39,371 nt of DNA from a virus. Below are positions 7,994 to 21,554 of the stretch, piece after piece. How positions within the stretch are numbered: position 1 is the first letter of the stretch; each line of letters starts with the position of its first letter. Under the pieces are notes generated by a model. That model worked only from the letters and a program-made list of their open reading frames with translations, had not been told where the DNA came from and ran no database searches. The position numbers and the translations under genes are program-made. The stretch covers positions 1 through 39,371 of the IMG/VR virus record IMGVR_UViG_3300011126_000085; one strand, 5' to 3'.

Positions 7994-8013
7994 ATAGGGT
8001 AAACAACTAAATA

Positions 8014-9276: not shown

Positions 9277-9316
9277 TTTGATTCCCCTTGTGTTTTGCTA
9301 ATTATACCATTCTGTC

Positions 9317-10290: not shown

Positions 10291-10557
10291 TTATCCTTCG
10301 TCAATACTTCTCAATAATTTATCAATCAGCAACTCATCATTACTGCTAACATTTATTGGCCAATTACTGTTCGAGCCAGCCAAGACGCCAACCGCTCGCT
10401 CAAGCTCTTGCACCCGCAAAATCGCGTTATTACGCTCGGTTTTCAACTGTGCTACTGCTGTTAAAGTAGCCGACCAAGTTTGATTGCGCGGTACAAGCCC
10501 GTTTGGAAGTCTATTAATAACGTCTTTAATCCAGAAGTGTTGGTCTTGCTCGTCCAT
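10291..10557 (-). CDS. 88-aa protein, unknown
   Basis: Starts MDEQDQHFWIKDVINRLPNG, continues with a helical region (LTAVAQLKTERNNAILRVQE, coiled-coil like) and an acidic C-terminus. Ribosome site GGGGAATG, seven bases before the ATG. It lies directly behind the long gene-less leader 10558-10930, whose last hairpin ends 25 bp upstream, so its expression may depend on that RNA. No known family. Confidence 0.65.
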   Translation of the reverse strand: MDEQDQHFWIKDVINRLPNGLVPRNQTWSATLTAVAQLKTERNNAILRVQELERAVGVLAGSNSNWPINVSSNDELLIDKLLRSIDEG

Positions 10558-10930
10558 CTTTCATTCCCCTCTAATTAAAAATACGCACCGGGTTAGTGTG
10601 ATCGACTAAAACCGACTAACGCCTGATTCGACTAAATCAAGATTGGTGCGTATTCGGCTGGTGACTGTAGCGACTGGTAAGGTCGCGTACCATAATGACT
10701 CAATCACCATGCGAATAAACACTATCTACTAATAGGCCCTTGTTTTGTCCAGACAAGGAACTGGTTCACTCTGTCGCCATGTGCGTGACTACACAATATG
10801 ATGGGAAAACCTCAAACCCATGACTTACACATTACTGGGCAAGAAAAGAAGGAGCCTAATCTTTAGCCACTGATGGCGTCAGCTTTTCTGTCCGCATTTC
10901 AGCGGCGGCATGTGTCAGACCTGTTTGTTC
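10558..10930 (-). ncRNA. about 370-bp gene-less transcribed region, candidate noncoding or leader RNA
   Basis: No credible coding frame on either strand. A promoter module at 10935-10976 points into it. The minus-strand RNA can form several hairpins: CCGC/GCGG near 10906, CCTTGT/ACAAGG near 10745, and a 10-bp stem AATACGCACC/GGTGCGTATT enclosing about 55 nt and followed by TTTTT near 10587. Inside that loop TTAGTCG occurs three times (CGACTAA on the plus strand, 10605-10638). It could be a regulatory leader, a small RNA or a protein-binding decoy. Not tRNA-like, and I see no group I intron core. Confidence 0.4.
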
Positions 10931-10934
10931 TTTA

Positions 10935-10976
10935 ATACTACCAACCTATCCAAGTATTACTAGGACACTTTGCGCC
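10935..10976 (-). promoter_or_regulatory. promoter module, copy near 10.95 kb
   Basis: Minus strand box GGCGCAAAGTGTCCTA (10976-10961), 20 bp, TAGTAT (10940-10935). Reads into the gene-less region 10930-10558. Confidence 0.65.
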
Positions 10977-10978
10977 AA

Positions 10979-11251
10979 TCAATATCCCATATCCGCATCG
11001 TTAAACCCTGCTAGCCAGTATGACCGACTCACCAAATCAGAGTACGGGCAGCGCTTAGACGTTAAGCCTTGGCGTTTTGCTTTGTACCCTTCGTCAATTA
11101 TCTGACTAAAGTCTATATGACATTCTGAAGGAGCAACGCCGCTTTGCTGTCTCAGCCACTTAGCCCTAACAAGCGTTGTCTTATTTTCTATTGCAAACTC
11201 AATATCAGACATAATCTCAACCTGCTTTCTCTGCACTGTATTAAGCGCCAC
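10979..11251 (-). CDS. Rmf-like (ribosome modulation factor) domain protein, 90 aa
   Basis: The C-terminal half EGYKAKRQGLTSKRCPYSDL followed by RSYWLAGFNDA has the pattern of RMF/CrpP-type domains: a Gly-x-x-A-x-x-x-G stretch, CPY, then Arg-x-x-Trp-Leu-x-Gly. RMF binds bacterial ribosomes and dimerises them; phage copies are frequent and mostly uncharacterised. Start chosen at GTG 11251-11249 (VALNTVQRK) because GGAGG lies five bases upstream; an ATG at 11263 lacks a site. It overlaps the upstream stop. Ribosome binding is an inference from the motif. Confidence 0.6.
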   Translation of the reverse strand: MALNTVQRKQVEIMSDIEFAIENKTTLVRAKWLRQQSGVAPSECHIDFSQIIDEGYKAKRQGLTSKRCPYSDLVSRSYWLAGFNDADMGY

Positions 11252-11462
11252 GAGAACCTCCATTTATTTTTATTAATCTGTGAATTTCTGCCGCTACTGA
11301 CTCAGCCTCGGTTTTACTCGTTGTTACAAACCCACCCGGCAACGCCCACGCCTGAACTCGAACGCTCTGACCTTTAACCATTTTTGCAACCTGAGTGGAT
11401 GGCACAAATCCCATTCCAACACATACACCGCTTGGCTTTACTATATCTAACAATTTACTCAT
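11241..11462 (-). CDS. 73-aa protein, unknown
   Basis: Starts MSKLLDIVKPSGVCVGMGFV after GAGGGGGAT; beta-rich central part (VRVQAWALPGGFVTTSKTEA) and a C-terminal helix. It is the first gene after a promoter module (11488-11529) and is followed with overlap by the Rmf-like gene. No family recognised. Confidence 0.7.
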   Translation of the reverse strand: MSKLLDIVKPSGVCVGMGFVPSTQVAKMVKGQSVRVQAWALPGGFVTTSKTEAESVAAEIHRLIKINGGSRGA

Positions 11463-11487
11463 CTTATCCCCCTCGTTTGTTTTGTTT

Positions 11488-11529
11488 ATTATCCAGATTT
11501 CTTTCCTATCTAATAGGACATTTTGCGAC
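11488..11529 (-). promoter_or_regulatory. promoter module, copy near 11.5 kb
   Basis: Minus strand box GTCGCAAAATGTCCTA (11529-11514), 20 bp, GATAAT (11493-11488). Abuts the palindrome 11530-11587 and drives 11462-10979. Confidence 0.7.
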
Positions 11530-11587
11530 TAAATAACACTTCGTAGCGCGCGACTCGTGCCTCGCGCCGCGTACTCTTTATTATAGC
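11530..11587 (-). repeat. cassette downstream palindrome, divergent copy
   Basis: Bounded on the minus strand by CTATAA (overlapping the stop of the 84-aa gene) and GTGTTAT (11539-11533). The GC-rich interior (GCGGCGCGAGGC and GAGTCGCGCGC) can fold imperfectly. Placed like the 47-bp copies at 15770, 18169 and 21463 but longer and less similar. Confidence 0.45.
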
Positions 11588-11835
11588 GAGTCTAAATACT
11601 TCTTTAATGCGCTGGCTGCGTGACCAAACTCAGCAAAACGGCATGTGTGCAGGAACCGCGCGTCTCGATTTGACGGTAGCGGCTCTGGAACCATTTGTAG
11701 AGACTTATTCAAACATTCACCAAATGGGCTTCTGACGGCAAATATCAATGCTCCGTCATTTCCAGAGGTCATAGCCTCTATCCAGTGAAGGCTTTTTGTA
11801 TCGACCCATTTTGTAGAAATTAGATTTAAAGACAT
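11581..11835 (-). CDS. 84-aa protein in cassette 4, unknown
   Basis: Starts MSLNLISTKWVDTKSLHWIE; alpha/beta pattern, with a Cys/His-containing end (FLHTCRFAEFGHAASALKKYL). No recognised family. The gene stands alone between a promoter module plus upstream palindrome (11846-11907) and a downstream palindrome that overlaps its stop codon, the same arrangement as three other small genes here. The ribosome site is poor (GCGAG), so the leader hairpin may influence translation. Confidence 0.65.
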   Translation of the reverse strand: MSLNLISTKWVDTKSLHWIEAMTSGNDGALIFAVRSPFGECLNKSLQMVPEPLPSNRDARFLHTCRFAEFGHAASALKKYLDSL

Positions 11836-11845
11836 GTAAGACTCG

Positions 11846-11907
11846 CTATAACAATGCGTTTAATTGGTGATGTTCGCAGGCTCTCGCCCATTAACTCCGG
11901 GTTATTT
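11846..11907 (-). repeat. cassette upstream palindrome (leader), copy 4
   Basis: Minus strand runs from ATAACCCGG (11905) to GCATTGTTAT (11848), 58 bp between ATAAC and GTTAT. Inner arms GTTAATGG and CCAATTAAAC pair imperfectly. Shares ATAACCC at one end and ATTGTTAT at the other with the copy at 18393-18452. Confidence 0.55.
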
Positions 11908-11911
11908 ATCA

Positions 11912-11953
11912 ATCATACACGCACAAAAACTATCCGCCAGGACGCTTTGCGAC
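11912..11953 (-). promoter_or_regulatory. promoter module, copy near 11.9 kb
   Basis: Minus strand box GTCGCAAAGCGTCCTG (11953-11938), 20 bp, TATGAT (11917-11912). The expected start point lies at the edge of the leader palindrome. Drives the 84-aa gene. Confidence 0.65.
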
Positions 11954-11955
11954 AT

Positions 11956-11975
11956 AAAAAACCCGCCGTGGCGGG
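11956..11975 (-). terminator. Rho-independent terminator
   Basis: Minus strand CCCGC-CACG-GCGGG (11975-11962) followed by TTTTTT (11961-11956). It ends the 13019-12007 transcript directly before the promoter module at 11912-11953. Confidence 0.85.
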
Positions 11976-12006
11976 AAAGGTCTTACTAGAGGGATGGTTT
12001 AATCTA

Positions 12007-12507
12007 TCACTCGCTTGAATTTATATCAAGCCAGCGTGTTAGCGTATCTCTAGCCTCGCGTATGTCGTCTAGCTTCGATTTTCCACCCGTCCTTACGCCT
12101 GACAGTAATAGCTTCTTGCTTGCGTGCTGTAAGCATCCTGAAGCGTCCTGAATGTCAAATAGATTATGTACTTGATAAACGTCGATTTCATTCAGCCCGG
12201 CAACATCTTTGTAATACTTCGGATACTTGTCTTTCATTGCAACAGTATCGCTTTTTCCTAAATCGCGATAGCCGCCGGTCATGCGCTCTGGTTCGTTAAG
12301 CGGGCTGAAGTCGATTTTTTCATTAACCCAACCGCCATTGTCGTTACCGTTTGGGTCAGTATAGTATGCATGAACTTCCCATTTTTCGTTTATTAAAAAT
12401 GCCGCTCCACCATTAATTCCTGATTTTACATAGGCATCTTTAAAATAATGAGTAGCGCCAATCTCACGCGCCTTCTTTAGCTGCTCTATTGTTAGATTCT
12501 GTTTCAT
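12007..12507 (-). CDS. DUF3310 (SaV)-like phage protein, 166 aa
   Basis: The C-terminal half (PKYYKDVAGLNEIDVYQVHN, then LQHASKKLLLSGVRTGGKSK, then LDDIREARDTLTRWLD) has the layout of DUF3310/SaV-like proteins: a tyrosine-containing start, a Glu-Ile-Asp motif, a central Lys-Lys-Leu helix, Gly-rich turn and an Asp-Asp-Ile-x-x-Ala helix. A nucleotide-related role has been suggested for that family but is unproven. The N-terminal 85 residues are beta-rich and unassigned. It overlaps the upstream gene by four bases and is followed by a terminator. Confidence 0.55.
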   Translation of the reverse strand: MKQNLTIEQLKKAREIGATHYFKDAYVKSGINGGAAFLINEKWEVHAYYTDPNGNDNGGWVNEKIDFSPLNEPERMTGGYRDLGKSDTVAMKDKYPKYYKDVAGLNEIDVYQVHNLFDIQDASGCLQHASKKLLLSGVRTGGKSKLDDIREARDTLTRWLDINSSE

Positions 12508-13019
12508 TCTGACACCTCCGGTGCTTTAAAGCCTGCGTCGAATAGTGCGCCAGCGGCTCTCTCACAAGCCGATGCTGACTGCTCAAATTCAATCAGCACT
12601 TCTTTTGCAGCCTCAGTAAACCGCTCTCGCTCTGTGCGGAGTGGGCGAAACTTCCAATGGCTTAGCGGAAGCACATCATAACCACCGTTATTGAATTTAG
12701 CCCATTTTACGACGGCGTCTTTTTCGTCTGATTCTAAAAACCTGCACTCTTCAGGATCAACATCATCAGAATATGCCTCGCACATCTCCCCAACTTTCGG
12801 CATATACTGATAAACCGCACCGTCGTTGCCGTTTTGCTCAATGGCCTGTTGTCGTGGATCATCTTCATCTGGCCACTGCTGCTGCGCTACTAGCTCGCGT
12901 AGTTTCTGCAACTCAACCATATACTCGCCAATCTTTTCAATGGAGCACTGACGCCACTCACCGCTCGGCGTGGTTCGGCACATTAGCACGCCGTTAATTA
13001 TTTTTTCTTCGTAGTACAT
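12504..13019 (-). CDS. 171-aa phage protein with C-terminal RTERE/AAGxLFDAGFK motif
   Basis: Start taken at ATG 13019-13017 after AGGGGATTAAG (a GTG lies one codon upstream). N-terminal coiled part, then a middle beta-rich domain (VYQYMPKVGEMCEAY, WAKFNNGGYDVLPL) and the C-terminal segment RTERERFTEAAKEVLIEFEQ through RAAGALFDAGFK. That last segment recurs at the end of many unrelated phage accessory proteins of unknown function and probably is a small swapped domain. Role unknown. Confidence 0.7.
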   Translation of the reverse strand: MYYEEKIINGVLMCRTTPSGEWRQCSIEKIGEYMVELQKLRELVAQQQWPDEDDPRQQAIEQNGNDGAVYQYMPKVGEMCEAYSDDVDPEECRFLESDEKDAVVKWAKFNNGGYDVLPLSHWKFRPLRTERERFTEAAKEVLIEFEQSASACERAAGALFDAGFKAPEVSE

Positions 13020-13034
13020 CACTTAATCCCCTGT

Positions 13035-13235
13035 TTATTTACTGACATTATCCAATTTAGCTATGCTGTTTTCTGCTTCCACAATCAATATACGAGTCGT
13101 AAAAAAGCTCAATTCATTAAGTATTGATTGAATACTCTCTTGCTGCTCTATACTTGCGTAACCATCAACGACCTCGCTTATTACCTCTTGATATTCCTTG
13201 ATTAATGAATTTATTTTTTGTCTCGATCTGCTCAT
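13035..13235 (-). CDS. 66-aa helical protein, unknown
   Basis: Start at MSRSRQKINSLIKEYQEVI (13235-13233), seven bases after GGGGGG. Entirely helical and charged, coiled-coil like. It follows the promoter module at 13285-13326. A 31-aa frame beginning at 13260 overlaps its start in another phase and also has a GGGGAT site, so the first translated frame here is not certain. Confidence 0.6.
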   Translation of the reverse strand: MSRSRQKINSLIKEYQEVISEVVDGYASIEQQESIQSILNELSFFTTRILIVEAENSIAKLDNVSK

Positions 13236-13284
13236 TCTCACGCCCCCCTATCAAGTTCATTGGCTTATCCCCAGTTTATTTAGC

Positions 13285-13326
13285 ATTATCCACTGATTGT
13301 GGTTTGTGCATAGGACAGTTTGCGCC
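13285..13326 (-). promoter_or_regulatory. promoter module, copy near 13.3 kb
   Basis: Minus strand box GGCGCAAACTGTCCTA (13326-13311), 20 bp, GATAAT (13290-13285). Drives 13235-12007. Confidence 0.7.
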
Positions 13327-13351
13327 TATGTGGCTGTGGTCGGTGTGGCGC

Positions 13352-13567
13352 TCAATAACATCCGCTAGAATCTGTAAAAGTGGAATTTATATGGTGATAA
13401 TGCTTCATATGCTCTGATTTTAAGCAGTAGAAACAATCAACTGCATCACCATCTGTCGTCACTTCTTTTCTTACATATCCGCACGCAGCTTGATGACTAA
13501 ACTCATATTCGGTCTGACCCAATGCGCGGGCGTCTACCCCGTCAATTTTAAAGTGTGTCTTTGCCAT
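13352..13567 (-). CDS. Cys/His zinc-binding-like protein, 71 aa
   Basis: Strong ribosome site GGGAGGATTT before the ATG. Residues HQAACGYVRKEVTTDGDAVD are followed by CFYCLKSEHMKHYHH: one Cys, a CxxC pair and several His suggest a single small zinc site. Short CxxC/His proteins of this form are frequent in phage early regions without known role. Confidence 0.7.
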   Translation of the reverse strand: MAKTHFKIDGVDARALGQTEYEFSHQAACGYVRKEVTTDGDAVDCFYCLKSEHMKHYHHINSTFTDSSGCY

Positions 13568-13594
13568 AAATCCTCCCGCGCCAAAAACGCTTAA

Positions 13595-13831
13595 TTAGTT
13601 GTTCGCTAAAGTCTTCTTATAACTCTCAGACCAGTCCCGCTTCTCCTGCGCTGTCGGCTCGTACATAACCGGCGCGCAATGGTAGCTAATACCGGCGTAT
13701 TCAAACCGTCCCGTAGTCTGACACTGAGCCGCTACGTCTGCGTTATCAACATACTGATCAATCATCTTTACTGAGAACGCAGCAGATAGCACACAAGCTG
13801 TTGCTACCGTTATTAATAGTAGTGTTTTCAT
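13595..13831 (-). CDS. secreted or membrane-anchored small protein, 78 aa
   Basis: N-terminal hydrophobic segment MKTLLLITVATACVLSAAFS looks like a signal anchor or signal peptide with possible cleavage after AAFS. The mature part has two Cys (QCQTTGRFEYAGISYHCAP) that may form a disulfide in the periplasm, supporting export. ATGA overlap with the previous gene and GGGGGAT upstream. A superinfection-exclusion or envelope role is possible but not shown. Confidence 0.7.
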   Translation of the reverse strand: MKTLLLITVATACVLSAAFSVKMIDQYVDNADVAAQCQTTGRFEYAGISYHCAPVMYEPTAQEKRDWSESYKKTLANN

Positions 13832-14028
13832 ATATCCCCCTGTTTTTCTTTATTATCGCTAGCAATTATATGAATTGGTAGGACATTACGCGCCTCGCGC
13901 AATAGTCGCTTTATTTGTTCGTGCTCCTCTGGTGTGGCGTAATACTCCCTGCGCTTCCAGCCTTTACTTTTTGCCTCGGTGCGCAATTTAACCACTCGGC
14001 TCGTGCTTTTTTCAGATGATTTATTCAT
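13828..14028 (-). CDS. ribbon-helix-helix-like DNA-binding protein, 66 aa
   Basis: A basic start (SSEKSTSRVVKLRTEAKSKG) is followed by WKRREYYATPEEHEQIKRLL, a strand-helix-helix pattern as in Arc/MetJ-type (RHH) regulators and phage antitoxin-like proteins. It is a candidate transcription factor, possibly for the repeated promoter boxes or the shared palindrome; that link is speculative. A promoter module (13852-13894) lies inside its 3' end. Confidence 0.55.
   Translation of the reverse strand: MNKSSEKSTSRVVKLRTEAKSKGWKRREYYATPEEHEQIKRLLREARNVLPIHIIASDNKEKQGDI
13852..13894 (-). promoter_or_regulatory. promoter module, copy near 13.9 kb
   Basis: Minus strand box GGCGCGTAATGTCCTA (13894-13879), 21 bp, GATAAT (13857-13852). 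Drives the exported 78-aa gene and lies within the coding end of the RHH-like gene. Confidence 0.65.
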
Positions 14029-14227
14029 TAGAGCCTACTACTGGCGCGTTCGACCATTCACCGTTTCTCAAACACCTTACATGGCCGTAACCGCAATTTA
14101 TCCAATCAACAGATGATTTAAGTTTGTATTGCTGCTTATAGACAAGATCTATCTTTTCCCCGCACCTTTCGCACCCACCGAAAAAGTCGGCCCCTTTGCC
14201 AGTGCTTTTAATTCTGTAGTCATTCAT
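14021..14227 (-). CDS. zinc-ribbon-like protein, 68 aa
   Basis: Start at MNDYRIKSTGKGADFFGG (14227-14225), just after the upstream stop. CERCGEK gives one CxxC and NCGYGHVRCLRNGEW a second Cys pair with His, consistent with a four-ligand zinc ribbon. Overlaps the RHH-like gene by eight bases. Function unknown. Confidence 0.65.
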   Translation of the reverse strand: MNDYRIKSTGKGADFFGGCERCGEKIDLVYKQQYKLKSSVDWINCGYGHVRCLRNGEWSNAPVVGSNE

Positions 14228-14231
14228 TCTA

Positions 14232-14408
14232 TTAGTCCAAGCCGTATATAATTGCATTTCCTTGCGCTAGCTCTAAATCCCTAGCGGCTCTCAAATCTTT
14301 GGTTTCTTCCCTGTGCTGCTCGAACAGCTCGTCAATTTTAGCTTGTACAGATGAGTCGCCTAAATCTCTTTGCTTTATTAAAAGATTCATTTTATCAATT
14401 GTAGTCAT
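14232..14408 (-). CDS. 58-aa helical protein, unknown
   Basis: Start MTTIDKMNLLIKQRDLGDSS at 14408-14406 after GGAGC. The frame upstream of it crosses a promoter and is not expected to be translated. Two charged helices, no Cys. Follows two candidate promoters (14507-14548 and TTGCGT-17-TATAGT at 14442-14470). Confidence 0.6.
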   Translation of the reverse strand: MTTIDKMNLLIKQRDLGDSSVQAKIDELFEQHREETKDLRAARDLELAQGNAIIYGLD

Positions 14409-14441
14409 TTTGTTTTGCTCCGTTGTTGTCTTAGTAAGGTA

Positions 14442-14470
14442 ACTATAGCCAAGTGTTTCCGGTAACGCAA
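14442..14470 (-). promoter_or_regulatory. sigma70-like promoter
   Basis: Minus strand TTGCGT, 17 bp, TATAGT, upstream of the 58-aa gene. It lacks the repeated 16-bp box. Confidence 0.45.
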
Positions 14471-14506
14471 GCAACAAATCATAAAATGTAAAAATAATTT
14501 AACCAA

Positions 14507-14548
14507 ACCATAAGTCCGGCATAGTTTCCATCTGTGACATTACGCGCC
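14507..14548 (-). promoter_or_regulatory. promoter module, divergent copy near 14.5 kb
   Basis: Minus strand box GGCGCGTAATGTCACA (14548-14533), 20 bp, TATGGT (14512-14507). Begins at the stop codon of the NinG gene. Confidence 0.5.
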
Positions 14549-15198
14549 TAGTTTAACTTTGACTCTATCGCCCTATTTCTAGCACTAAGCCACTTTCTGC
14601 ATCGCTTGTAGTCGTCGTCTGAATATCTAACGATTCGAACGCGCTCTAAGCGACTGATAATTGTATCGAAATTATCACCATGCTTTAGCTTGAGGCCTTC
14701 TGTATAGCCTCTGGTGTTCATTGCGCCGTGAATGTTACCTGACAGCTCTTTATTGCATCTTTTGTTGTCCTGAAGGTTTACGTTAAGCGTGTTCAATACC
14801 AAATCAGAACGAGCGCCGCGCGTATAGTAGTGACCAGCGGCAAAGTCTGAGTTATTCGATTCTGACCACTTTTTACCGCAGCTTATACACTCCGGGGTTA
14901 TTCCGGCCCGGCTGCACCGCAGTATCTCTTCCAGCTTTATCCAGCGATTAAAAGCATTCTGAGTCAGATTTTTCTGTGACTTACCCTTACTTACACCCCA
15001 CTGACTAGCTAGCTGCTTTGTTCGCTTCTTGTACTCTCTGCGTGCGGTTTTGCGAACCTTTTCAGCGTTAGTCTTGCCGTCCTTAGTTCTAACCCACGCC
15101 GTCGCGTGCTCGATTGTACAGAACGTGCCAGCCCGGACGGTTATCCACTCTGTAGAATACTCCTTGCAGTGCTTGCACTTGCGCTTACTTACTGCCAT
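14548..15198 (-). CDS. ninG: NinG/Rap recombination endonuclease, 216 aa
   Basis: Start placed at MAVSKRKCKHCKEYSTEW (15198-15196); the longer frame would run through the upstream gene. CKHCKEY with a later Cys forms an N-terminal zinc knuckle; a basic helix follows (AEKVRKTARREYKKRTKQLA); ECISCGKKW, AAGHYYTRGARSDLVLNTLN and NVNLQDNKRCNKELSGN are the conserved NinG/Rap blocks. Lambda Rap is a Holliday-junction/D-loop endonuclease aiding RecA- or Red-type recombination. Together with the annealing protein, Gp157 and SSB it forms the recombination set. Family call is firm. Confidence 0.9.
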   Translation of the reverse strand: MAVSKRKCKHCKEYSTEWITVRAGTFCTIEHATAWVRTKDGKTNAEKVRKTARREYKKRTKQLASQWGVSKGKSQKNLTQNAFNRWIKLEEILRCSRAGITPECISCGKKWSESNNSDFAAGHYYTRGARSDLVLNTLNVNLQDNKRCNKELSGNIHGAMNTRGYTEGLKLKHGDNFDTIISRLERVRIVRYSDDDYKRCRKWLSARNRAIESKLN

Positions 15199-15380
15199 AC
15201 AGAAACAAGAAAACCGATCGGGATTGCAAAAAACGAAGCGCCAGCAATCGCCGCAAAAAGCCACATACCGAAATTGCCAAGCCTAGCAATAATGCCAGCC
15301 AAACAGATGACTATGAGCAGTACAATTGCTCCAGTTCCAGCTATTTGCTGCCCTAAATCTAAAATATCACACCCGTTCAT
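15189..15380 (-). CDS. small two-helix membrane protein, 63 aa
   Basis: Start MNGCDILDLGQQ at 15380-15378 after GAGGTG. Two hydrophobic helices (GAIVLLIVICLAGIIARL and MWLFAAIAGASFFAIPIGFL) joined by a short turn; no charged tail. Overlaps the NinG start by ten bases. An inner-membrane protein, perhaps superinfection exclusion; role unknown. Confidence 0.65.
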   Translation of the reverse strand: MNGCDILDLGQQIAGTGAIVLLIVICLAGIIARLGNFGMWLFAAIAGASFFAIPIGFLVSVWQ

Positions 15381-15411
15381 ACACACCTCAAAAGAAGCTC
15401 ATTAGCTCCTG

Positions 15412-15759
15412 TTACGTTATATACCCATTTCTAGGCTGTTGAGCCTTCTGCCAACTTAACTCAGAGCGCCATGCTTCAAATTTCCACTCACGCTGTTTAA
15501 GATTCCACCGGCACTTCTCTTCAGCCGCTACAGCCTCACGCAACCCCTCAAGAACTGCAATATAATCATTATGCCGCCTAGCGTACTCTTCTCGACTAGC
15601 CGCGCTCTTGTATCGCTCCGGGTTTTCTATCTCGGCCTCAGCCGCCAATAGTGCCAGCTTGCTCTGCCTAAAGTGCTCAAGATACGTTCTTTGCGCCTTG
15701 GCGTTGCTAAATGCCTCAACTAACCGTTCTATGTCGGCTAACCATTCGTATTGTTCCAT
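15412..15759 (-). CDS. 115-aa charged helical protein, unknown
   Basis: All-helical with long charged heptads (YLEHFRQSKLALLAAEAEIE; YIAVLEGLREAVAAEEKCRW; REWKFEAWRSELSWQKAQQ). The layout resembles a small protein often seen next to recombination genes in phages but with no assigned function. Ribosome site is a run of eight G on the minus strand, beginning right after a cassette palindrome, so its mRNA must pass through that palindrome. Confidence 0.7.
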   Translation of the reverse strand: MEQYEWLADIERLVEAFSNAKAQRTYLEHFRQSKLALLAAEAEIENPERYKSAASREEYARRHNDYIAVLEGLREAVAAEEKCRWNLKQREWKFEAWRSELSWQKAQQPRNGYIT

Positions 15760-15769
15760 CTACCCCCCC

Positions 15770-15820
15770 CAATAACACACGCCAGCACGAGACCTTCGGC
15801 TCGCGTGTGCGGCGTTATGT
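15770..15820 (-). repeat. cassette downstream palindrome, copy 3
   Basis: 51 bp on the minus strand from ACATAACGCCGC to GTGTGTTATTG; 47 bp between ATAAC and GTTAT. Shares GCGAGCCGAAGGTCTC core positions with copies at 18169 and 21463. Can fold as ATAAC/GTTAT, GCC/GGC, GCAC/GTGC and GAG/CTC with unpaired bases on each side. Overlaps the stop of the 58-aa gene. Confidence 0.7.
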
Positions 15821-15991
15821 GTTTTTAGCTGCCTCTAGTAGATAGGCTTTAGCCATTTTGAGGTCATCAACAAAATCTAAGTTTTTAGTATCTTCTTGGT
15901 CGCCACAAGTAGCACATGGCACAAACCCCGTTTCTATTTCTTCAAGCGCTCTATCTAAAAGTATTAGAGCGTTGTTTATATTTCCGTTCAT
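15815..15991 (-). CDS. 58-aa protein in cassette 3, unknown
   Basis: Start chosen at MNGNINNALILLDRALEEIE (15991-15989; an ATG also precedes it) after AGGAATTGG. A helical first half and CATCGDQ near residue 26 (CxxC). The stop TAA lies in ACATAACG, the start of the downstream palindrome. Promoter module, leader palindrome, gene and downstream palindrome form a compact unit of about 360 bp. No family recognised. Confidence 0.6.
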   Translation of the reverse strand: MNGNINNALILLDRALEEIETGFVPCATCGDQEDTKNLDFVDDLKMAKAYLLEAAKNT

Positions 15992-16017
15992 CATTCCAAT
16001 TCCTAAATAATTAAAAC

Positions 16018-16079
16018 CACATAACAATTCACTTTGTCAAATACTCGCTGCGGCTCGCACAGCAAAGCTCTTGGTTATC
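16018..16079 (-). repeat. cassette upstream palindrome (leader), copy 3
   Basis: Minus strand GATAACCAAGAGC to AATTGTTATGTGG; 58 bp between ATAAC and GTTAT. Inner arms CTTTG/CAAAG pair. Same boundaries as the copies at 11846 and 18393. Confidence 0.55.
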
Positions 16080-16085
16080 ATTCAA

Positions 16086-16128
16086 ACTATACCAGCAACG
16101 CCGGTTGTTGATATGACGCTTTACGCCA
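16086..16128 (-). promoter_or_regulatory. promoter module, copy near 16.1 kb
   Basis: Minus strand box GGCGTAAAGCGTCATA (16128-16112), 20 bp, TATAGT (16091-16086). Start point expected at the edge of the leader palindrome. Confidence 0.65.
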
Positions 16129-16157
16129 ATATTCCAGATTTCTTTGCACGTCGTTTC

Positions 16158-16196
16158 AACATGTATAGATAATTGTTTTTTCTATACATGTTGATT
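16158..16196. repeat. 13-bp perfect inverted repeat
   Basis: TCAACATGTATAG (16158-16170) and CTATACATGTTGA (16184-16196) around a 13-bp AT-rich loop. No T-run follows on either strand, so it is not a standard terminator. It lies between the stop of the 55-aa gene and a promoter box 30 bp away; a protein-binding or cruciform site is likely. Confidence 0.7.
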
Positions 16197-16201
16197 TACT
16201 G

Positions 16202-16369
16202 CTAAATAATCTGCTTGCGTATCAACTGCCAGCCGTGGCAATTTGCACAATATAGCAGCCCTACGCTCTGATAAAATATTGCGCCCGTGCCAATAAGCTG
16301 GTGGTCGCAAGCGCACTCTCTTGGATTAATCGCGCCGAATCTCTCAGCGCGGTTTAGTAGGTCAGTCAT
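16202..16369 (-). CDS. 55-aa zinc-finger-like protein, unknown
   Basis: ATG overlaps the ssb stop (TAATG). Starts MTDLLNRAERFGAINPRE; contains CACDH near residue 19 and CANCHGW near 41, a possible Cys/His metal site. Small proteins with this pattern frequently follow phage ssb or recombination genes; role unknown. Confidence 0.6.
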   Translation of the reverse strand: MTDLLNRAERFGAINPRECACDHQLIGTGAIFYQSVGLLYCANCHGWQLIRKQII

Positions 16370-16848
16370 TAACGACGCTGGCCGGGTGGCACTGGTTGCT
16401 GCTGATTGTAACCGCCGTGCTGAATTGGCTGCTGTGGCGCGTAGCCTTGCGGTGGCTGGTACTGCGGTTGCTGTGCTTGCTGAGGCGCTTGCTGGTAATT
16501 CTGCTGCGGCGCTGCCATTTGGCCGTTAGGAATCGGCGAATGTGTATAGCCAAGGTCACAATCAATCATTTCTAAACTGAAAGACGGCCCGTTTTGCCCA
16601 TCAAACTGCTTAATTTTCAACTGCTTACAACTTATCTCAATAACCGAACCCTCAGTTAGAACGTCACGATAGTATTGAATTTGTTGCGGTGCCTTGGCAA
16701 AAATAACACCTTCGTAATTTGTCCAAGCCTTTTGCTTCGTCTCCCGGTCGTAATACTGCTCACCAAGACGAATACCAAAGCCGATAGATTCACCCGCTTG
16801 AAACTCGCTAGCCGGTTTGTTTAATTTTCCTGTGATTGAATGTGCCAT
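16369..16848 (-). CDS. ssb: single-stranded DNA-binding protein, 159 aa
   Basis: Residues 1-105 form an OB-fold-type domain (ITGKLNKPASEFQAGESIGF, YEGVIFAKAPQQIQYYRDVL, SVIEISCKQLKIKQFDGQNG) as in phage SSB-like proteins. The tail (about 105-159) is Gln/Pro/Gly/Tyr-rich and disordered. It ends PVPPGQRR: the acidic DDDIPF-type tip that host SSB uses to recruit partners is absent. Ribosome site AGGAGTT. Lies with Gp157 and the annealing protein, consistent with replication/recombination. SSB assignment is good but not based on an exact motif. Confidence 0.72.
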   Translation of the reverse strand: MAHSITGKLNKPASEFQAGESIGFGIRLGEQYYDRETKQKAWTNYEGVIFAKAPQQIQYYRDVLTEGSVIEISCKQLKIKQFDGQNGPSFSLEMIDCDLGYTHSPIPNGQMAAPQQNYQQAPQQAQQPQYQPPQGYAPQQPIQHGGYNQQQPVPPGQRR

Positions 16849-16856
16849 TATAACTC

Positions 16857-17345
16857 CTACTTAATTGTGATAGACGGCTTTGATTCGCCAACGCTAGCGC
16901 CTTCGACTTGCTCGCCATTTTTTAAATCAGATAACAATGCTTTCTTGTCAACTGAGCTGCTTACTTTTATAGATAAATACTTCTCGGGAATACATGACTC
17001 ATCACTAATGACAAGCAGAGGCTTTGGCTTTCCATAGGATACAGATATAACACCATCGTCCGCTTTTGTTATCTCTGAACTCTTCATTCCTTCGCTTAAA
17101 TACTGCTTAAGCCTATCAATGTGAGCCTCGTACTGTTTTCTTTTTGCTGAAAGTCTGGCTTCTTCAGCTTTAACAGAATCAATAAATCCGGATAGGTTTC
17201 GCATAAAGTAGGCGATATTCACGGCTTTTTGCTTAAAGTCCAACTCAATCGCCGCAATAGCTTCCGCAACCTCCTCAGGAGTAGCGCCGTCATTTAGAGC
17301 GTCTTCAGCCTGCTTCATACAATCGCTTAACTGATAAAGATTCAT
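16857..17345 (-). CDS. Gp157-family protein, 162 aa
   Basis: Matches the siphovirus Gp157 pattern: MNLYQLSDCMKQAEDALNDG, a coiled-coil centre (DFKQKAVNIAYFMRNL, EEARLSAKRKQYEAHIDRLK), YLSEGMKSSEI, then ISVSYGKPKPLLVISDESCI with PEKYLSIKVSSSVDKKALLS and a C-terminal GEQVEGA. Gp157 proteins accompany phage SSB and annealing genes; a resistance or recombination role has been proposed but is not settled. ATGA overlap with the annealing gene. Confidence 0.88.
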   Translation of the reverse strand: MNLYQLSDCMKQAEDALNDGATPEEVAEAIAAIELDFKQKAVNIAYFMRNLSGFIDSVKAEEARLSAKRKQYEAHIDRLKQYLSEGMKSSEITKADDGVISVSYGKPKPLLVISDESCIPEKYLSIKVSSSVDKKALLSDLKNGEQVEGASVGESKPSITIK

Positions 17346-18103
17346 TCTGACACCTCAAATTCTTCTTTTTTCTTGAAGTACATCTTGTTTAGCGGATCTT
17401 TTTCTAATTCAGAGTCAAGACCAAGTACAGGAGCCTTTCTGTCTATCATTGCTGCCTTTAGTCCATAAACCCTTGAGACCGCTTCAAAATTTGGCGACAT
17501 ATCCATTGCCTTAACCCCATCATCTACATCACTACGGAAGACTAGCAGCTGCTTCTCGTACTCGGCGTCATTATCATCCGCCTTCTTTAAGCTGTTTTCC
17601 GTCTCTGCCGCACTAACATAGTGAGCATCATCAAAAAGACCCATGTAAACATCAGCGCAAACCCCTAAAAGCGAAAGGCATTTTTTTAGAGCGTCGGTGA
17701 CAGATTTCTTTGGAGCTTCATTGTCTATGATCATTTTTGATCCATCAGACTTCATATAGCGAAACTTTGTATGACCGTACTGCTGAATAGTGTTACTTCT
17801 GTCTCCGTGCCACAAAGTCAACAGTAGCGTATGGTTTTGCTCCCACACGATAGAATCACCATCTTTTAGAATTTCTTTTTTTCCGTCATTAACAATCATT
17901 ACCGGCTTGGTATTATCGTAGCGCTCAGAATCAATGGCGTAACCCCAAGCCTCACCGATTGGCCCTAATGCCTCAGTTGCTAGCTTTACCATATACAAAC
18001 CATTAACCGAAGTTTGCTTATTGCCGTCAACGTTTGCGTTCTGAGTGTAGCTTCTATCTGTTTTTGGTATTGAAGACCAAATGCGTAAATTTTCTTTTTT
18101 CAT
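17342..18103 (-). CDS. single-strand annealing protein, Rad52-like, 253 aa
   Basis: N-terminal region KKENLRIWSSIPKTDRSYTQ, TSVNGLYMVKLATEALGPIG and EAWGYAIDSERYD fits Rad52/DUF1071-like phage annealing proteins, and DNEAPKKSVTDALKKCLSLL is the Asp-x-x-Lys-x-x-x-Asp-Ala-Leu/Lys motif seen in such proteins. These pair complementary DNA strands for recombination-linked replication. The C-terminal 80 residues are charged and variable. Expressed from its own promoter module and followed by Gp157 and ssb. Family is likely; the exact clade is not certain. Confidence 0.65.
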   Translation of the reverse strand: MKKENLRIWSSIPKTDRSYTQNANVDGNKQTSVNGLYMVKLATEALGPIGEAWGYAIDSERYDNTKPVMIVNDGKKEILKDGDSIVWEQNHTLLLTLWHGDRSNTIQQYGHTKFRYMKSDGSKMIIDNEAPKKSVTDALKKCLSLLGVCADVYMGLFDDAHYVSAAETENSLKKADDNDAEYEKQLLVFRSDVDDGVKAMDMSPNFEAVSRVYGLKAAMIDRKAPVLGLDSELEKDPLNKMYFKKKEEFEVSE

Positions 18104-18124
18104 ATCATCCCCCTGTTTTTCTTT

Positions 18125-18167
18125 ATTCTATCAACTGACAACGTATATAGTTAGGACATTTCAGGCC
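18125..18167 (-). promoter_or_regulatory. promoter module, copy near 18.15 kb
   Basis: Minus strand box GGCCTGAAATGTCCTA (18167-18152), 21 bp, TAGAAT (18130-18125). Abuts the downstream palindrome of cassette 2 and drives the annealing protein operon. Confidence 0.65.
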
Positions 18168-18168
18168 T

Positions 18169-18219
18169 ATATAACACACGAGTGCATGAGACCTTCAGCT
18201 CACGACTCCGGCGTTATGT
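18169..18219 (-). repeat. cassette downstream palindrome, copy 2
   Basis: 51 bp on the minus strand from ACATAACGCCGG to GTGTGTTATAT; 47 bp between ATAAC and GTTAT. Inner stems GAGT/ACTC and TGAG/CTCA with the same AAGGTCTC core as copy 3. Overlaps the stop of the 54-aa gene. Confidence 0.7.
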
Positions 18220-18378
18220 TCTTTTGAATAATCCAGCACCCCAAAATACAATTGCCGTCACCGTAGCCCAGTACAGCATTTGAAACGTCTCAATATAGTT
18301 AGCCTGTTCCGCAAGCCATGTCTGATGCGCCCAGCTTCCTATGCCCATCATCAGTATCAGAAATATTGCCCTCAGCAT
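18214..18378 (-). CDS. 54-aa membrane protein in cassette 2, unknown
   Basis: ATG 18378-18376 after a strong AAGGGGCGAT. Two hydrophobic helices (MLRAIFLILMMGIGSW and MLYWATVTAIVFWGAGLF) and a short basic end FKRT. The stop TAA is part of ACATAACG, start of the downstream palindrome. Alone between promoter module plus leader palindrome and the downstream palindrome. Possible envelope or exclusion role; no family. Confidence 0.65.
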   Translation of the reverse strand: MLRAIFLILMMGIGSWAHQTWLAEQANYIETFQMLYWATVTAIVFWGAGLFKRT

Positions 18379-18392
18379 CTATCGCCCCTTCG

Positions 18393-18452
18393 CACATAAC
18401 AATGCGCTGTAAGTTTATTTCGCTGACGCTTAAAAATAAGCGCCGGGTTATC
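18393..18452 (-). repeat. cassette upstream palindrome (leader), copy 2
   Basis: Minus strand GATAACCCGGCGC to GCGCATTGTTATGTG; 56 bp between ATAAC and GTTAT. Contains the inner hairpin CGCTTATTTTTAAGCG. The predicted transcript would start at its first bases. Confidence 0.6.
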
Positions 18453-18454
18453 TA

Positions 18455-18496
18455 ACTATACCCGCCCTACCTGCCTTGGCTAGGACGGTTTGCGCC
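18455..18496 (-). promoter_or_regulatory. promoter module, copy near 18.5 kb
   Basis: Minus strand box GGCGCAAACCGTCCTA (18496-18481), 20 bp, TATAGT (18460-18455), directly after the P-like gene. Drives the 54-aa cassette gene. Confidence 0.7.
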
Positions 18497-18501
18497 AATG
18501 T

Positions 18502-19179
18502 TTATTCGTCCAGTTGCGCTAAAATGCCTTTCATCTTCTGTTGTCTTTCGATTTTGTACTTAGACTTGTACTCCTCCGAATAAGCTGACTCATATTCCTT
18601 CGGGAGCGCTTTAGGAATCGCTTGGTAAAGATCTTCGCCTGAAAACACCCTACGACATACAATGTCATAGTTTCGCTCGTACAGAGCGTTATAGTCCCTC
18701 TCGTTCATCTTCATAAAGTCAAAACTTGGTATTTCTTGACCAGCAACATAAACGGCGGGATGTGACCAGTTCACAACCTCGCCAGATTTCAGCCTGTGTC
18801 GATTTACCGCGTACTGTCGCGCGGCTGTTGCTGCGTCAGGGAGTCCGTATGCTTCTAGCGATGGCTTGCACCAGCTAAGGAACTTACCCACCGATGGCAT
18901 AAAGTCACAATTTTCAAGCCGTGCTCTAGCCATGCCCATTTTGATCATTGACGTGTTTGTCACGCCCTGTTCAATCATTCCTCGAGTCATTTGCTGCTTG
19001 TAGCTGTCAATCTCCTTCTGGTTTTTAAGATTATGCTGCCAGCCCGGAAAGATTGACTTCAATGACTCAAATGCGCTATCAACGACACGTTTTGCGTTTT
19101 CGTTAACTTCGATACTTTCTTGATTCGATTGTCGTGCTTGATCCATCGCACCGGTTATCAGTTTTCTAACGTGATTCAT
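18502..19179 (-). CDS. replication protein P-like helicase loader, 225 aa
   Basis: The central part FPGWQHNLKNQKEIDSYKQQ, IKMGMARARLENCDFMPSVG and KFLSWCKPS fits the lambda P family, which loads host DnaB helicase at the phage origin. It lies right after an initiator-like gene, as O and P do in lambda. N-terminal helix and C-terminal region are variable (a charged end, KYKIERQQKMKGILAQ). Length near lambda P (233). ATGA-type overlap with the upstream small gene; GGAGAAAA before the ATG. Confidence 0.75.
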   Translation of the reverse strand: MNHVRKLITGAMDQARQSNQESIEVNENAKRVVDSAFESLKSIFPGWQHNLKNQKEIDSYKQQMTRGMIEQGVTNTSMIKMGMARARLENCDFMPSVGKFLSWCKPSLEAYGLPDAATAARQYAVNRHRLKSGEVVNWSHPAVYVAGQEIPSFDFMKMNERDYNALYERNYDIVCRRVFSGEDLYQAIPKALPKEYESAYSEEYKSKYKIERQQKMKGILAQLDE

Positions 19180-19382
19180 TTTAATTTTCTCCGCTGTCGT
19201 CCCTGTTTTACTAATTCGTCCGCTGTCTGTTTTTTTAGTCTAAGTCTAACGCCGTCGGCCGACATACCCACTAACGCGCTAATCTGTTTTACAGTTAGTG
19301 ATTTACCGCCAACTGTGAACGTCTGGATATTCCGTCGTGACTTTCTGGAAATAGGTTTTAGATCGTATGTTGTGAATATCAT
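19176..19382 (-). CDS. 68-aa helix-turn-helix-like protein
   Basis: Contains SLTVKQISALVGMSADGVRL followed by RLKKQTADELVKQG, an HTH unit of the modular homing-nuclease type, flanked by very basic ends (SRKSRRN, GRQRRKLK). No nuclease motif. Located between initiator and loader genes with overlaps on both sides. Likely DNA-binding; could regulate replication or be a remnant of an endonuclease. Confidence 0.6.
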   Translation of the reverse strand: MIFTTYDLKPISRKSRRNIQTFTVGGKSLTVKQISALVGMSADGVRLRLKKQTADELVKQGRQRRKLK

Positions 19383-20185
19383 CAGAACGTATCCCCTATG
19401 TTTTTTGTCCAGTCTGAGTCAGGGTTGTAGTTGCCGTTATTTGCAGAAACACCAGTCTTAACACAGTCGTACCATTCTGATTTTAGTCCAGCCCAGCCCC
19501 GCGACACCTGCTCTGTAAAAGACTGGTCAACAGTAAGACCATGGTCTATCAGTATCTGCAAATGCTTCTCGATATCTCTGTGTGCCAAGTCAGAGTCAGA
19601 AGCCCCCTTCTTCACTCTGTGCTTGCACCACTCTTTCAGGATTTCATCAGAGGCTTGGTTAATCAGATTGAAATCAGATTTACGGATCTTGTCGAATAAT
19701 GACTCAGCTTTCGTCTTTCGTTTAGGCTTTGCCGGTGCGGTAGCAACGCCTGTATTTATATCTGTAGTAGTCTCTGTTGTAATCTCTGTAGATGATTGTC
19801 GTATTCCTGCACTCTTGTATGCTGGTTTACTAACATCTAGTTTGCTGGTTTCCCGCATACTGGATTCGGCAAATCCACACAACTGTAAAAGTGCTTTAAA
19901 ATCAACGCGATAGTACAACTTACAAGGAACTCCCTGCTTCTTTTCTTGGAGTACGCCGATATTATTTAGCCTTGCCCTTGCCGTTTCTTGTTCGCAACGA
20001 GTTAGGCCGGTTTCCTCCTCCCATTCCTTCGCTGTTTTATAAAACCATCCGTCCGGGTCACTGGTTCGCTTTGACCAGTAAACAGCCTGAGAAAGCATTA
20101 GAGCGCCAGTTATCCCGCAACCGAGAGAAACAAAGCCACGCTGAAATGCGATAGGTCGGTCAAATACCGAAGTTGGGTCAATCAT
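19382..20185 (-). CDS. replication initiator-like protein (O-like), 267 aa
   Basis: N-terminal winged-helix region (FVSLGCGITGALMLSQAVYW, WFYKTAKEWEEETGLTRCEQ, ARARLNNIGVLQEKKQGVPC) of the type found in phage replication proteins and in lambda O-like initiators. A Thr-rich linker (EITTETTTDI) and basic stretch (KPKRKTKAES) lead to a helical C-terminal domain ending WTKNIGDTF, possibly the loader-binding part. By analogy with lambda the origin may lie within this gene; the low-complexity linker DNA (about 19745-19795) and paired GCTGGTTT repeats near 19825-19850 are candidates, weakly. Confidence 0.7.
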   Translation of the reverse strand: MIDPTSVFDRPIAFQRGFVSLGCGITGALMLSQAVYWSKRTSDPDGWFYKTAKEWEEETGLTRCEQETARARLNNIGVLQEKKQGVPCKLYYRVDFKALLQLCGFAESSMRETSKLDVSKPAYKSAGIRQSSTEITTETTTDINTGVATAPAKPKRKTKAESLFDKIRKSDFNLINQASDEILKEWCKHRVKKGASDSDLAHRDIEKHLQILIDHGLTVDQSFTEQVSRGWAGLKSEWYDCVKTGVSANNGNYNPDSDWTKNIGDTF

Positions 20186-20224
20186 TTTGTAACCTCTAAA
20201 ATTGTTCTCTTAGTCATTCTCGTC

Positions 20225-20277
20225 AAAGAATTGCCCCGGCAGTTGACGCTACCGGGGCGTGACGCAAGAGGAACGTC
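20225..20277. repeat. double-hairpin element, copy 1
   Basis: Plus strand GCCCCGG/CCGGGGC (20233-20239 with 20252-20258), then GACG-CAAGAGGAA-CGTC (20261-20277). Similar tandem hairpins occur at 21138-21182. On the minus strand the first hairpin is followed by AATTCTTT, a poor T-run, so weak termination upstream of the initiator gene is possible. Confidence 0.5.
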
Positions 20278-20319
20278 GTGGGGATTTTGATTATAACGTA
20301 TCAGCTATCAGTATGCCAT

Positions 20320-20709
20320 TTACTCATAGGGATTCTCACCGCGTAGAGCTTTGGCGTTTGCGATAGCGTCGTCGTAGTTTAGCCAAAGGCCGTTACGGAG
20401 GGCGCTTATATCTGAGGAGTCATTATTCCAGCATTCTAAGGTAATGCCAGATTCGTCAAACGGATCGGGTACATAATACTTACTACCCATACTAGGCTCT
20501 TTAACCTCCGGAGCCGGAACCTCAAAGCCGCAAATGTTGCGAGTGCGGGGTTTGAATCGGAATTCAAGACTGCCAAACAGGCAGCATGAAACTTCGTTAG
20601 TAAAGAGTTGTTTCCACTCGCTGTTATTTTTTACTTGCAACCCTTCCGTTATATTCTCTTCAGCCCGCACATTCTCAAGCATTTTTTCAAGTAGTTGTTC
20701 TGTGTTCAT
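20320..20709 (-). CDS. 129-aa phage protein, unknown
   Basis: Contains CGFEVPAPEVKEPSMGSKYY and VPDPFDESGITLECWNNDSS, then a C-terminal helix NYDDAIANAKALRGENPYE. The PAP...G..YYVP...W pattern is shared by many small phage early proteins with no known role. ATGA overlap with the 39-aa gene. The second gene downstream is the initiator. Confidence 0.7.
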   Translation of the reverse strand: MNTEQLLEKMLENVRAEENITEGLQVKNNSEWKQLFTNEVSCCLFGSLEFRFKPRTRNICGFEVPAPEVKEPSMGSKYYVPDPFDESGITLECWNNDSSDISALRNGLWLNYDDAIANAKALRGENPYE

Positions 20710-20825
20710 GCTACTTTCCCTCGTGTCTTTGGCTTCTTCTTGCCTTTTTCAATCTCAGCTATAACTCGCTTAGCTTCTGCAATATCTTGCGGATTGTCTG
20801 TGTCTATGTGTATTGATATTTTCAT
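20706..20825 (-). CDS. 39-aa Lys-rich peptide, unknown
   Basis: ATG 20825-20823 after AAGGGGGAT; starts MKISIHIDTDNPQDIAEAKR and ends in a basic tail (KGKKKPKTRGKVA). A beta strand plus helix plus basic tail. Coupled to the next gene by a four-base overlap. Short but well supported by its ribosome site. Confidence 0.6.
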   Translation of the reverse strand: MKISIHIDTDNPQDIAEAKRVIAEIEKGKKKPKTRGKVA

Positions 20826-20840
20826 TTTTATCCCCCTTGG

Positions 20841-21053
20841 TTACTTAACAGTTAAACAAAAAGTCTGAAGCGCATCCGTCGCGCCTACTCTAGTTAGGTA
20901 CTTGTTTTGTATTGATTCAATCTTTTTACCGATAGCTTCCATATATGCCATTGCCAATTCTTCAGTAAACTGCTCTGGCGTTACGCCGTCAGCCGCCATC
21001 ATATCCGCAGCCCATTGTGCTTTTATTTTTAGATCGTTAGTTAGTTCATCCAT
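20841..21053 (-). CDS. 70-aa helical protein, unknown
   Basis: First gene of the leftward early operon, after a promoter module that contains the shared palindrome. Starts MDELTNDLKIKAQWAADMMA; all-helical, acidic, with one Cys. GAGGGACG before the ATG. No recognised family. Confidence 0.65.
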   Translation of the reverse strand: MDELTNDLKIKAQWAADMMAADGVTPEQFTEELAMAYMEAIGKKIESIQNKYLTRVGATDALQTFCLTVK

Positions 21054-21082
21054 CTTACGTCCCTCGGTTAGTTTGTGAGTTA

Positions 21083-21125
21083 ACTATAACCGTGAGCGCT
21101 CATACTTGATAGGACATTACGGGAC
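21083..21125 (-). promoter_or_regulatory. early leftward promoter module with palindromic operator
   Basis: Minus strand box GTCCCGTAATGTCCTA (21125-21110), 21 bp, TATAGT (21088-21083). Palindrome TGAGCGCTCA (21102-21093) fills the spacer. Drives 21053-19.4 kb and the replication genes. Confidence 0.65.
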
Positions 21126-21137
21126 AACTTTAGGAGT

Positions 21138-21182
21138 GCCCCACTGGCCGAAACCAGCGGGGCGACGGCGCAGGGGAACGCC
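21138..21182. repeat. double-hairpin element, copy 2, between divergent early promoters
   Basis: Plus strand GCCCCaCTGG/CCAGcGGGGC (21138-21147 with 21154-21163), then GGCG-CAGGGGAA-CGCC (21167-21182). Same layout and shared bases as 20225-20277. It separates the leftward promoter at 21083-21125 from the rightward one at 21215-21256. Confidence 0.5.
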
Positions 21183-21214
21183 GGTAGGAGTTACATCATA
21201 GCACGCTGTAAGTT

Positions 21215-21256
21215 GGCGTAAAGTGTCCTAGCTGTTTTTTGCGCGGCTGGTATATT
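21215..21256 (+). promoter_or_regulatory. rightward promoter module 1
   Basis: GGCGTAAAGTGTCCTA (21215-21230), 20 bp, TGG-TATATT (21251-21256; extended -10). Same module as on the minus strand, with identical spacing. Confidence 0.7.
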
Positions 21257-21259
21257 TGA

Positions 21260-21293
21260 ATAATACCCCTTCGGCACTTTATGCCGTTGTTAT
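21260..21293 (+). repeat. cassette upstream palindrome (leader), short copy 1
   Basis: Runs from ATAATACCCC to GTTGTTAT, 34 bp, with inner hairpin CGGCA-CTTTA-TGCCG (21272-21286). Shorter than the 56-58 bp copies but placed the same way between promoter and cassette gene. Confidence 0.45.
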
Positions 21294-21321
21294 ACGGCTA
21301 CTAACTACGGAGTAATTTATA

Positions 21322-21468
21322 ATGACTGAGTTTTACATAAGATACGAGAGGATGAGTGGAGAATACTATTACATGATTTACAAAAGGGTTTTTGTATTTC
21401 ACTATTTTTATGAAAGATATAACACTCCAGAATCAGCGGCTACTAGATTGGCAGAACTTGCCGTATAG
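21322..21468 (+). CDS. 48-aa Tyr-rich protein in cassette 1, unknown
   Basis: ATG 21322 after GGAG nine bases upstream. Starts MTEFYIRYERMSGEYYYMIY; nine Tyr and five Phe in 48 residues, beta-rich, then a short helix ending AATRLAELAV. The stop TAG lies in the first bases of the downstream palindrome. Same cassette arrangement as the three leftward cassettes, but on the opposite strand. Function unknown. Confidence 0.65.
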   Translation: MTEFYIRYERMSGEYYYMIYKRVFVFHYFYERYNTPESAATRLAELAV

Positions 21469-21513
21469 CGCGCAGTACGCGAGCCGAGGGTCTCACGATA
21501 CGCTGTGTTATTG
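21463..21513 (+). repeat. cassette downstream palindrome, copy 1
   Basis: 51 bp from GTATAGCGCGCAG to CTGTGTTATTG; 47 bp between ATAGC and GTTAT, the same as copies at 15770 and 18169. Shares CGCGAGCCGA and GGTCTC positions with copy 3. Overlaps the stop of the 48-aa gene and touches the next promoter box. Confidence 0.7.
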
Positions 21514-21554
21514 ACGTGGAATGTCCTAGCGCTTGTCTGAGCTGGTGGTATATT
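21513..21554 (+). promoter_or_regulatory. rightward promoter module 2
   Basis: GACGTGGAATGTCCTA (21513-21528), 20 bp, TATATT (21549-21554). Drives 21577-23698. Confidence 0.7.

Follow-up and report, generated by a model that had tools for sequence, protein, structure and literature searches.

Small-gene units bounded by attC-like palindromes in a tailed phage contig: candidate integron-type cassette platforms of reversed polarity

IMGVR_UViG_3300011126_000085 is a 39,371-base virus contig of a tailed phage, analyzed here over its whole length (hereafter, the window), which encodes an exonuclease/ERF-like protein, SSB, and P-like and O-like replication genes. Four small genes in the window are flanked by palindromes and were found, on rechecking the coordinates, where a preceding sequence-only reading of this DNA had placed them. 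In the direction of the gene, all four units have the same order: promoter-like box, palindrome B, small gene, and palindrome A. We propose that each unit is probably an integron-type cassette platform read backwards by a phage promoter, and that the two palindromes differ in role, the one on the promoter side being a putative cassette-borne attC and the one at the far end a putative fixed terminal site. The features of the four units are given below, where the strand listed for a site is its attC orientation, and scores, conditional P values, and the related phage contigs (G398 to G409) are described in the following paragraphs.

21215–21256, plus strand: unit 1, candidate promoter (motif match) with box GGCGTAAAGTGTCCTA (21215–21230) and −10-like TATATT (21251–21256)
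21260–21293, minus strand: unit 1, site B1, a short, degenerate relative of an attC-like site with a poor attC score
21322–21468, plus strand: unit 1, candidate cassette gene, 48 amino acids, no PHROGs or Pfam family
21463–21513, minus strand: unit 1, putative terminal site A1, R′ box mutated (GCTATAC), conditional P 0.0026, in the family of the G405 and G407 sites
18455–18496, minus strand: unit 2, candidate promoter with box (18481–18496) and −10-like hexamer (18455–18460)
18394–18453, plus strand: unit 2, attC-like site B2, score 25.9, 92% identical to G398 19750–19813
18214–18378, minus strand: unit 2, candidate cassette gene, 54 amino acids; gene plus B2 77% identical to G404 404–643
18169–18219, plus strand: unit 2, putative terminal site A2, score 24.7, the sole window site matched by the covariance model (14.2 bits, E 0.34)
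16086–16127, minus strand: unit 3, candidate promoter with box (16112–16127, one mismatch) and −10-like hexamer (16086–16091)
16019–16080, plus strand: unit 3, site B3, weak attC score, conditional P 0.023, orientation not decided by the model
15815–15991, minus strand: unit 3, candidate cassette gene, 58 amino acids
15770–15820, plus strand: unit 3, putative terminal site A3, score 11.1, conditional P 8e-4, 85–90% identical to sites of G398, G399, G403, and G404
11912–11953, minus strand: unit 4, candidate promoter with box (11938–11953, one mismatch) and −10-like hexamer (11912–11917)
11846–11907, plus strand: unit 4, attC-like site B4, score 22.7; 11848–11918 is 89% identical to G400 5931–6001
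11581–11835, minus strand: unit 4, candidate cassette gene, 84 amino acids
11533–11584, plus strand: unit 4, putative terminal site with a mutated R′ box (ATTAT), placed in the A′ family by alignment to such sites of other contigs and outside the fixed-geometry scoring

Palindromes running from ATAAC to GTTAT lie at 11848–11905 (58 nt), 15772–15818 (47 nt), 16021–16078 (58 nt), 18171–18217 (47 nt), and 18396–18451 (56 nt), and one running from ATAGC to GTTAT lies at 21465–21511 (47 nt). The sequence-only reading described three downstream palindromes of 47 bp with a common core and three upstream ones of 56–58 bp. Both descriptions hold: the upstream lengths are 58, 58, and 56 nt, and the window contains three copies of the core GAGCYGARGGTCTC, precisely at the three 47-nt sites (chance mean, 0.49 at ≤2 mismatches). 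One architecture common to all four units was also claimed, which is correct overall, except that the upstream palindrome of the plus-strand cassette (unit 1) is short and degenerate and that the downstream site of the unit 4 gene ends in ATTAT, not GTTAT, and belongs to a second family of terminal sites. Units 1–3 terminate in family A and unit 4 in family A′. The AAC and GTT of the R boxes (RYYYAAC and GTTRRRY, or near) are intact in five of the eight window sites, and altered boxes are found in A1, B1, and the A′ site of unit 4.

The box on the promoter side, GKCGYAAAVYGTCCTA, has 11 matches in the window at ≤2 mismatches versus 0.25 expected, with a −10-like hexamer about 20 nt beyond it, and it precedes most operons of the early region (10961–21230), not just the four cassette units. 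We regard it as a putative promoter that would be active in transcription; each B site begins about where the transcription start would be expected. The inverted orientation of cassette 1 had been read as a sign of shuffling, but it provides no evidence of this by itself, because the promoter box is inverted along with the cassette. The same box recurs in the phage contigs L204, L220, L237, L264, and L275, with or without a hairpin behind it. Between the unit 3 box and the gene at 16202–16369 lies an inverted repeat (16156–16194) with 17-nt arms that are 94% complementary.

Likeness to attC was evaluated with a boxes-and-pairs model built on 216 attC sites of fixed geometry, which were taken from integron integrase loci and adjoining stretches. 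The three best window matches of this model were B2, A2, and B4, and the fourth, A3, is likewise a palindrome. Shuffled windows yielded 0.03 matches scoring ≥18 per window, with a maximum of 21.5 in 30 shuffles, and 819 kb of other viral DNA yielded one such match. That match is a single attC-like site (428–514, score 19.0) in contig L202, which is otherwise distant. The known aadA1 site scores 19.7, and the window sites stand at the weak end of the attC range, because the lower decile of the training sites is 30.9. When only the interior was randomized and the R boxes were kept, six window sites were attC-like (conditional P 1e-4, 8e-4, 1e-4, 1e-4, 0.0026, and 0.023; combined, 8e-14); for five of the six, the higher score was that of the orientation running against the gene, and B3 scored equally both ways. 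A site of G399 (36710–36768) that is 90% identical to B3 scores in one orientation. Paired L boxes, an extrahelical base, and an unpaired spacer are good at 11846, 18169, and 18394, and partial at the other window sites. In 37 phage sites, 8/8 pairs of the L helix changed on both sides, with a covariation score of 0.375 versus a shuffled mean of 0.131 (0/500 shuffles as high; slid controls ≤0.121), a result that is overstated because most of the sites came from a model that rewards pairing.

Relatives were found by scanning viral contigs with the promoter box, which recovered contigs where such a site directly follows the box, and then with part of the terminal site, from which ten contigs came. 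A first, exact pattern of the terminal core found none in the viral contigs, being too strict, and searches with the ERF, O-like, and P-like proteins yielded only distant phages, which were unfit for slot comparison. The examined set comprises twelve uncultured phage contigs with such sites (G398–G409), of which G400 and G402 are nearly identical over 17 kb. Many of the twelve share a layout of promoter, attC, and gene, in some cases repeated, followed by a conserved terminal site; they contain further strong sites, with scores up to 34.0, and multi-gene arrays, for example in G400/G402, G401, and G407. The terminal sites form two families, A (ATAACACA...GCGTTA) and A′ (AACACTTC or AACACCTC...TTGTTA), both of which start with AACAC where the cassette-borne sites have AACAA, and their sequence is conserved as far as GTT and free beyond. 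The area of B1 is also conserved, with window 21278–21329 being 88% identical to G407 8150–8201. The terminal site, the B2 site, and the G401 array were not found in named phages, an Rfam search gave no match, and the phage sites had only short matches to bacterial integron loci, the best being 79% over 58 bp. Phage records contained no relative of cassette gene 3 or 4, nor did viral contigs contain one of gene 4, a search that covered genes 3 and 4, not 1 and 2. DNA methyltransferase-like genes stand beside attC-like or terminal sites at G401 (L338) 9248–9751, which matches Pfam Dam, and at G399 33040–34242, which was assigned from the sequence by eye. Elsewhere in the window, 28234–28680 has a weak GNAT acetyltransferase match under the Pfam cut-off.

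The phage cassettes differ from those of bacteria in polarity. In the phage contigs, including the window, 13 cassettes run against their attC, one runs along it, and two are unclear, counts that are drawn from a small number of contigs, with two near-copies within G401 among them; the sole forward cassette is bounded by a doubtful site. The bacterial control arrays have 139 cassettes along attC, 12 against, and 9 unclear, giving 13/14 versus 12/151 reversed (Fisher P 1e-11). A gene running along its own attC, a trait that is usual rather than absolute in integrons, is therefore not what the phage cassettes display. The genes could still be expressed, because a promoter-like box lies at the end far from the terminal site.

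Comparison of related contigs supports the earlier suggestion of units that move, and the genes are not kept constant among relatives. G401 and G403, which come from different metagenomes, are 97–98% identical in both flanks of a terminal site, where G403 has one additional 290-bp piece, consisting of a gene and an attC, that lies between GCGGC and GTTATTG and carries GTTAT at each of its ends. This cassette sits at the R′ (GTTRRRY) box of the terminal site, the pattern that would be expected of integration there; loss from G401 would look alike. Cassette 2 of the window, taken from R′ box to R′ box (18213–18453), is 77% identical to G404 404–643, and the same cassette unit adjoins a terminal site of family A in the window and of family A′ in G404. 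Both comparisons present a unit bounded by R′ boxes and gained or lost whole, as expected of an integron cassette. In addition, the B2-like site of G398 goes with a different gene, and three contigs whose DnaB proteins are 97–98% identical have different genes in the slots around dnaB. In 7/199 cases, the end of a homology block was at most 8 nt from an R′ box in both contigs, versus about 0.8 expected, although these ends are not independent.

In the mechanism that we propose, a conserved hairpin site (A or A′) would be fixed just ahead of the next phage gene or promoter, and cassettes, each consisting of one gene and an attC-like site with the gene running against it, would be inserted at the GTTRRRY box of this site by an integron-type recombinase. 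The phage promoter would stay beside the last attC, at its R′ box, and drive the array back toward site A. If cassettes were gained, lost, and exchanged at R′ boxes, this would account for the different small genes in equivalent slots of related phages, and such active recombination may benefit the phage. The recombinase would most likely be the integrase of a host integron and act in trans; IntI1 recombines several other phage-borne attC sites in a published assay (PMC9892861). Generic phage integrases, in G399 and G401 only, were the tyrosine recombinases seen in the thirteen records that were related or compared, and those in the arrays were not taken to be cognate enzymes, because they are not IntI. 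The G401 (L338) genes, at 7482–8609 and 10333–11460, encode two nearly identical phage-type integrases of 375 amino acids within the attC-like array region, where they are possibly carried as cassettes.

Several observations weigh against an integron-type platform. An Infernal covariance model of our own, built from 60 trimmed sites, matched only 18169–18219 among the window sites (14.2 bits, E 0.34), ranking it second behind a local match without the inner helix, and this model does recover many of the sites in a Shewanella prophage array, as well as that of aadA1. The attC scoring that the sequence-only reading had put forward as a check was thus good by one model and weak by the other. Predicted single-strand folds are weak for most window sites compared with aadA1, with 18169–18219 yielding the expected fold, and several window sites carry mutations, because of which some window cassettes may now be fixed. 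Most sites in the covariation and polarity counts were selected by the boxes-and-pairs model itself, and the one clean insertion pair is equally a possible deletion. The site A pattern was not found in samples of 395 and 369 bacterial genomes. As had been noted, the window has no integron integrase (no TIGR02249 match), and there was no IntI among the tyrosine recombinases of the thirteen records, most of which are fragments. From the model scores, the conditional test, the weak covariance match, and the weak folds together, the window palindromes are best called attC-like, some of them apparently degraded.

Another possibility is that the units are dead remnants, that is, old attC-flanked genes from bacterial integrons whose exchange in this phage has ended. 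We consider this unlikely but by no means far-fetched: the mutated R′ boxes at 11533–11584 and 21463–21513, the degenerate B1, the weak folds, and the single cassette in each unit are all consistent with it, whereas the R boxes of units 2 and 3 are intact, cassette 2 has another terminal site as its neighbor in G404, strong arrays exist in other contigs, and the reversed polarity would be left unexplained. With less assurance still, we consider a phage-adapted integron lineage that would have a hairpin insertion site of its own instead of attI, possibly its own recombinase, reversed polarity, and several promoter-docked platforms per genome with one-cassette exchange of small genes. That such a system uses its own recombinase, encoded in unsequenced genome parts or of an unrecognized type, rather than the host IntI, appears doubtful. 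Terminal hairpins with an AACAC spacer, unlike both attI and cassette attC, argue for it, as do the reversed polarity and the failure to find site A in the sampled bacteria, but the sites fit the bacterial attC model well and the tyrosine recombinases seen in two contigs are generic. It is similarly improbable that the hairpins work in transcription or as RNA, enclosing single-gene units (morons) that are shuffled when ordinary or ERF-type homologous recombination joins repeated hairpins, a route proposed for the promoter early stem-loop (PeSL) cassettes of T4-like phages. In its favor, the B sites begin near the expected transcription start, the units share a promoter box, the hairpins are repeated within and between phages, and the phages encode ERF-type proteins, but the G401/G403 junction shares GTTAT alone (5 bp), too little for homologous recombination, the match of spacer, L box, and extrahelical base to attC holds in one set orientation, which an RNA insulator does not need, and no T-run stands behind the window hairpins. 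As a possible second role of the hairpins, RNA insulation would be compatible with all recombination readings.

The integron-type platform shares with class 1 and chromosomal integron cassettes the R and L boxes, spacers, extrahelical base, one gene with one site, and insertion at GTTRRRY, but the phage genes run against attC with the promoter at the far array end, and the insertion end is a hairpin, not a known attI. Neither an integron integrase gene nor an attI with adjoining Pc was found; a promoter-like box stands at the attC end, and a hairpin site stands where attI would be. The system would work like an integron cassette array yet is not a complete integron, given its reversed gene polarity and missing integrase. 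The sequence-only reading is supported in part: its suggestions of attC sites and of mobile units have support, but it missed that the sites point against the genes and that the two palindromes differ in role. We know of no phage morons with recombination-site-like hairpins at both ends, although the units resemble morons as these are generally known, being additional single genes with their own promoter and hairpin. PeSL cassettes act by homology and, to our knowledge, lack attC features; in our contigs the repeats are common to phages, yet the single clean junction shares 5 bp. As cited in PMC4503421, PeSL cassettes of T4-like phages combine a promoter with a stem-loop and go along with the shuffling of genes between phages, and in this the present units resemble them. 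A cluster of attC lacking integron-integrase (CALIN) is defined as at least two close attC sites without an integrase (IntegronFinder 2.0, PMC9024848); in the window, 18169 and 18394 qualify by the boxes-and-pairs model, and one site only by our covariance model. Phage CALINs are known from virulent and temperate phages (Qi et al. 2023, PMC9892861), and like them the present arrays are clusters of attC-like sites, with no integron integrase found, that carry orphan and methyltransferase cargo. In that report, two phage arrays have the usual polarity, and promoter-docked platforms of a common type that end in a conserved terminal site are not described; such platforms recur here. Reversed arrays with a conserved terminal hairpin were not described in the literature searched, which covered few subscription papers, and hence their novelty is unproven.

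Strand choice at attC is held to set cassette orientation toward the integron promoter (PMC8946536), and this rule becomes testable because there are natural arrays with opposite polarity. Phage attC sites were previously known as occasional clusters. If our reading is true, several platforms per genome, together with a common promoter box, terminal sites that are conserved, and cassettes of reversed polarity, would amount to a standing exchange system in uncultured phages, which offers a direct route to asking how phages swap small, fast-changing genes. It would also open the questions of whether phages borrow the integrase of a host integron and whether there is cassette traffic between phages and bacterial integrons.

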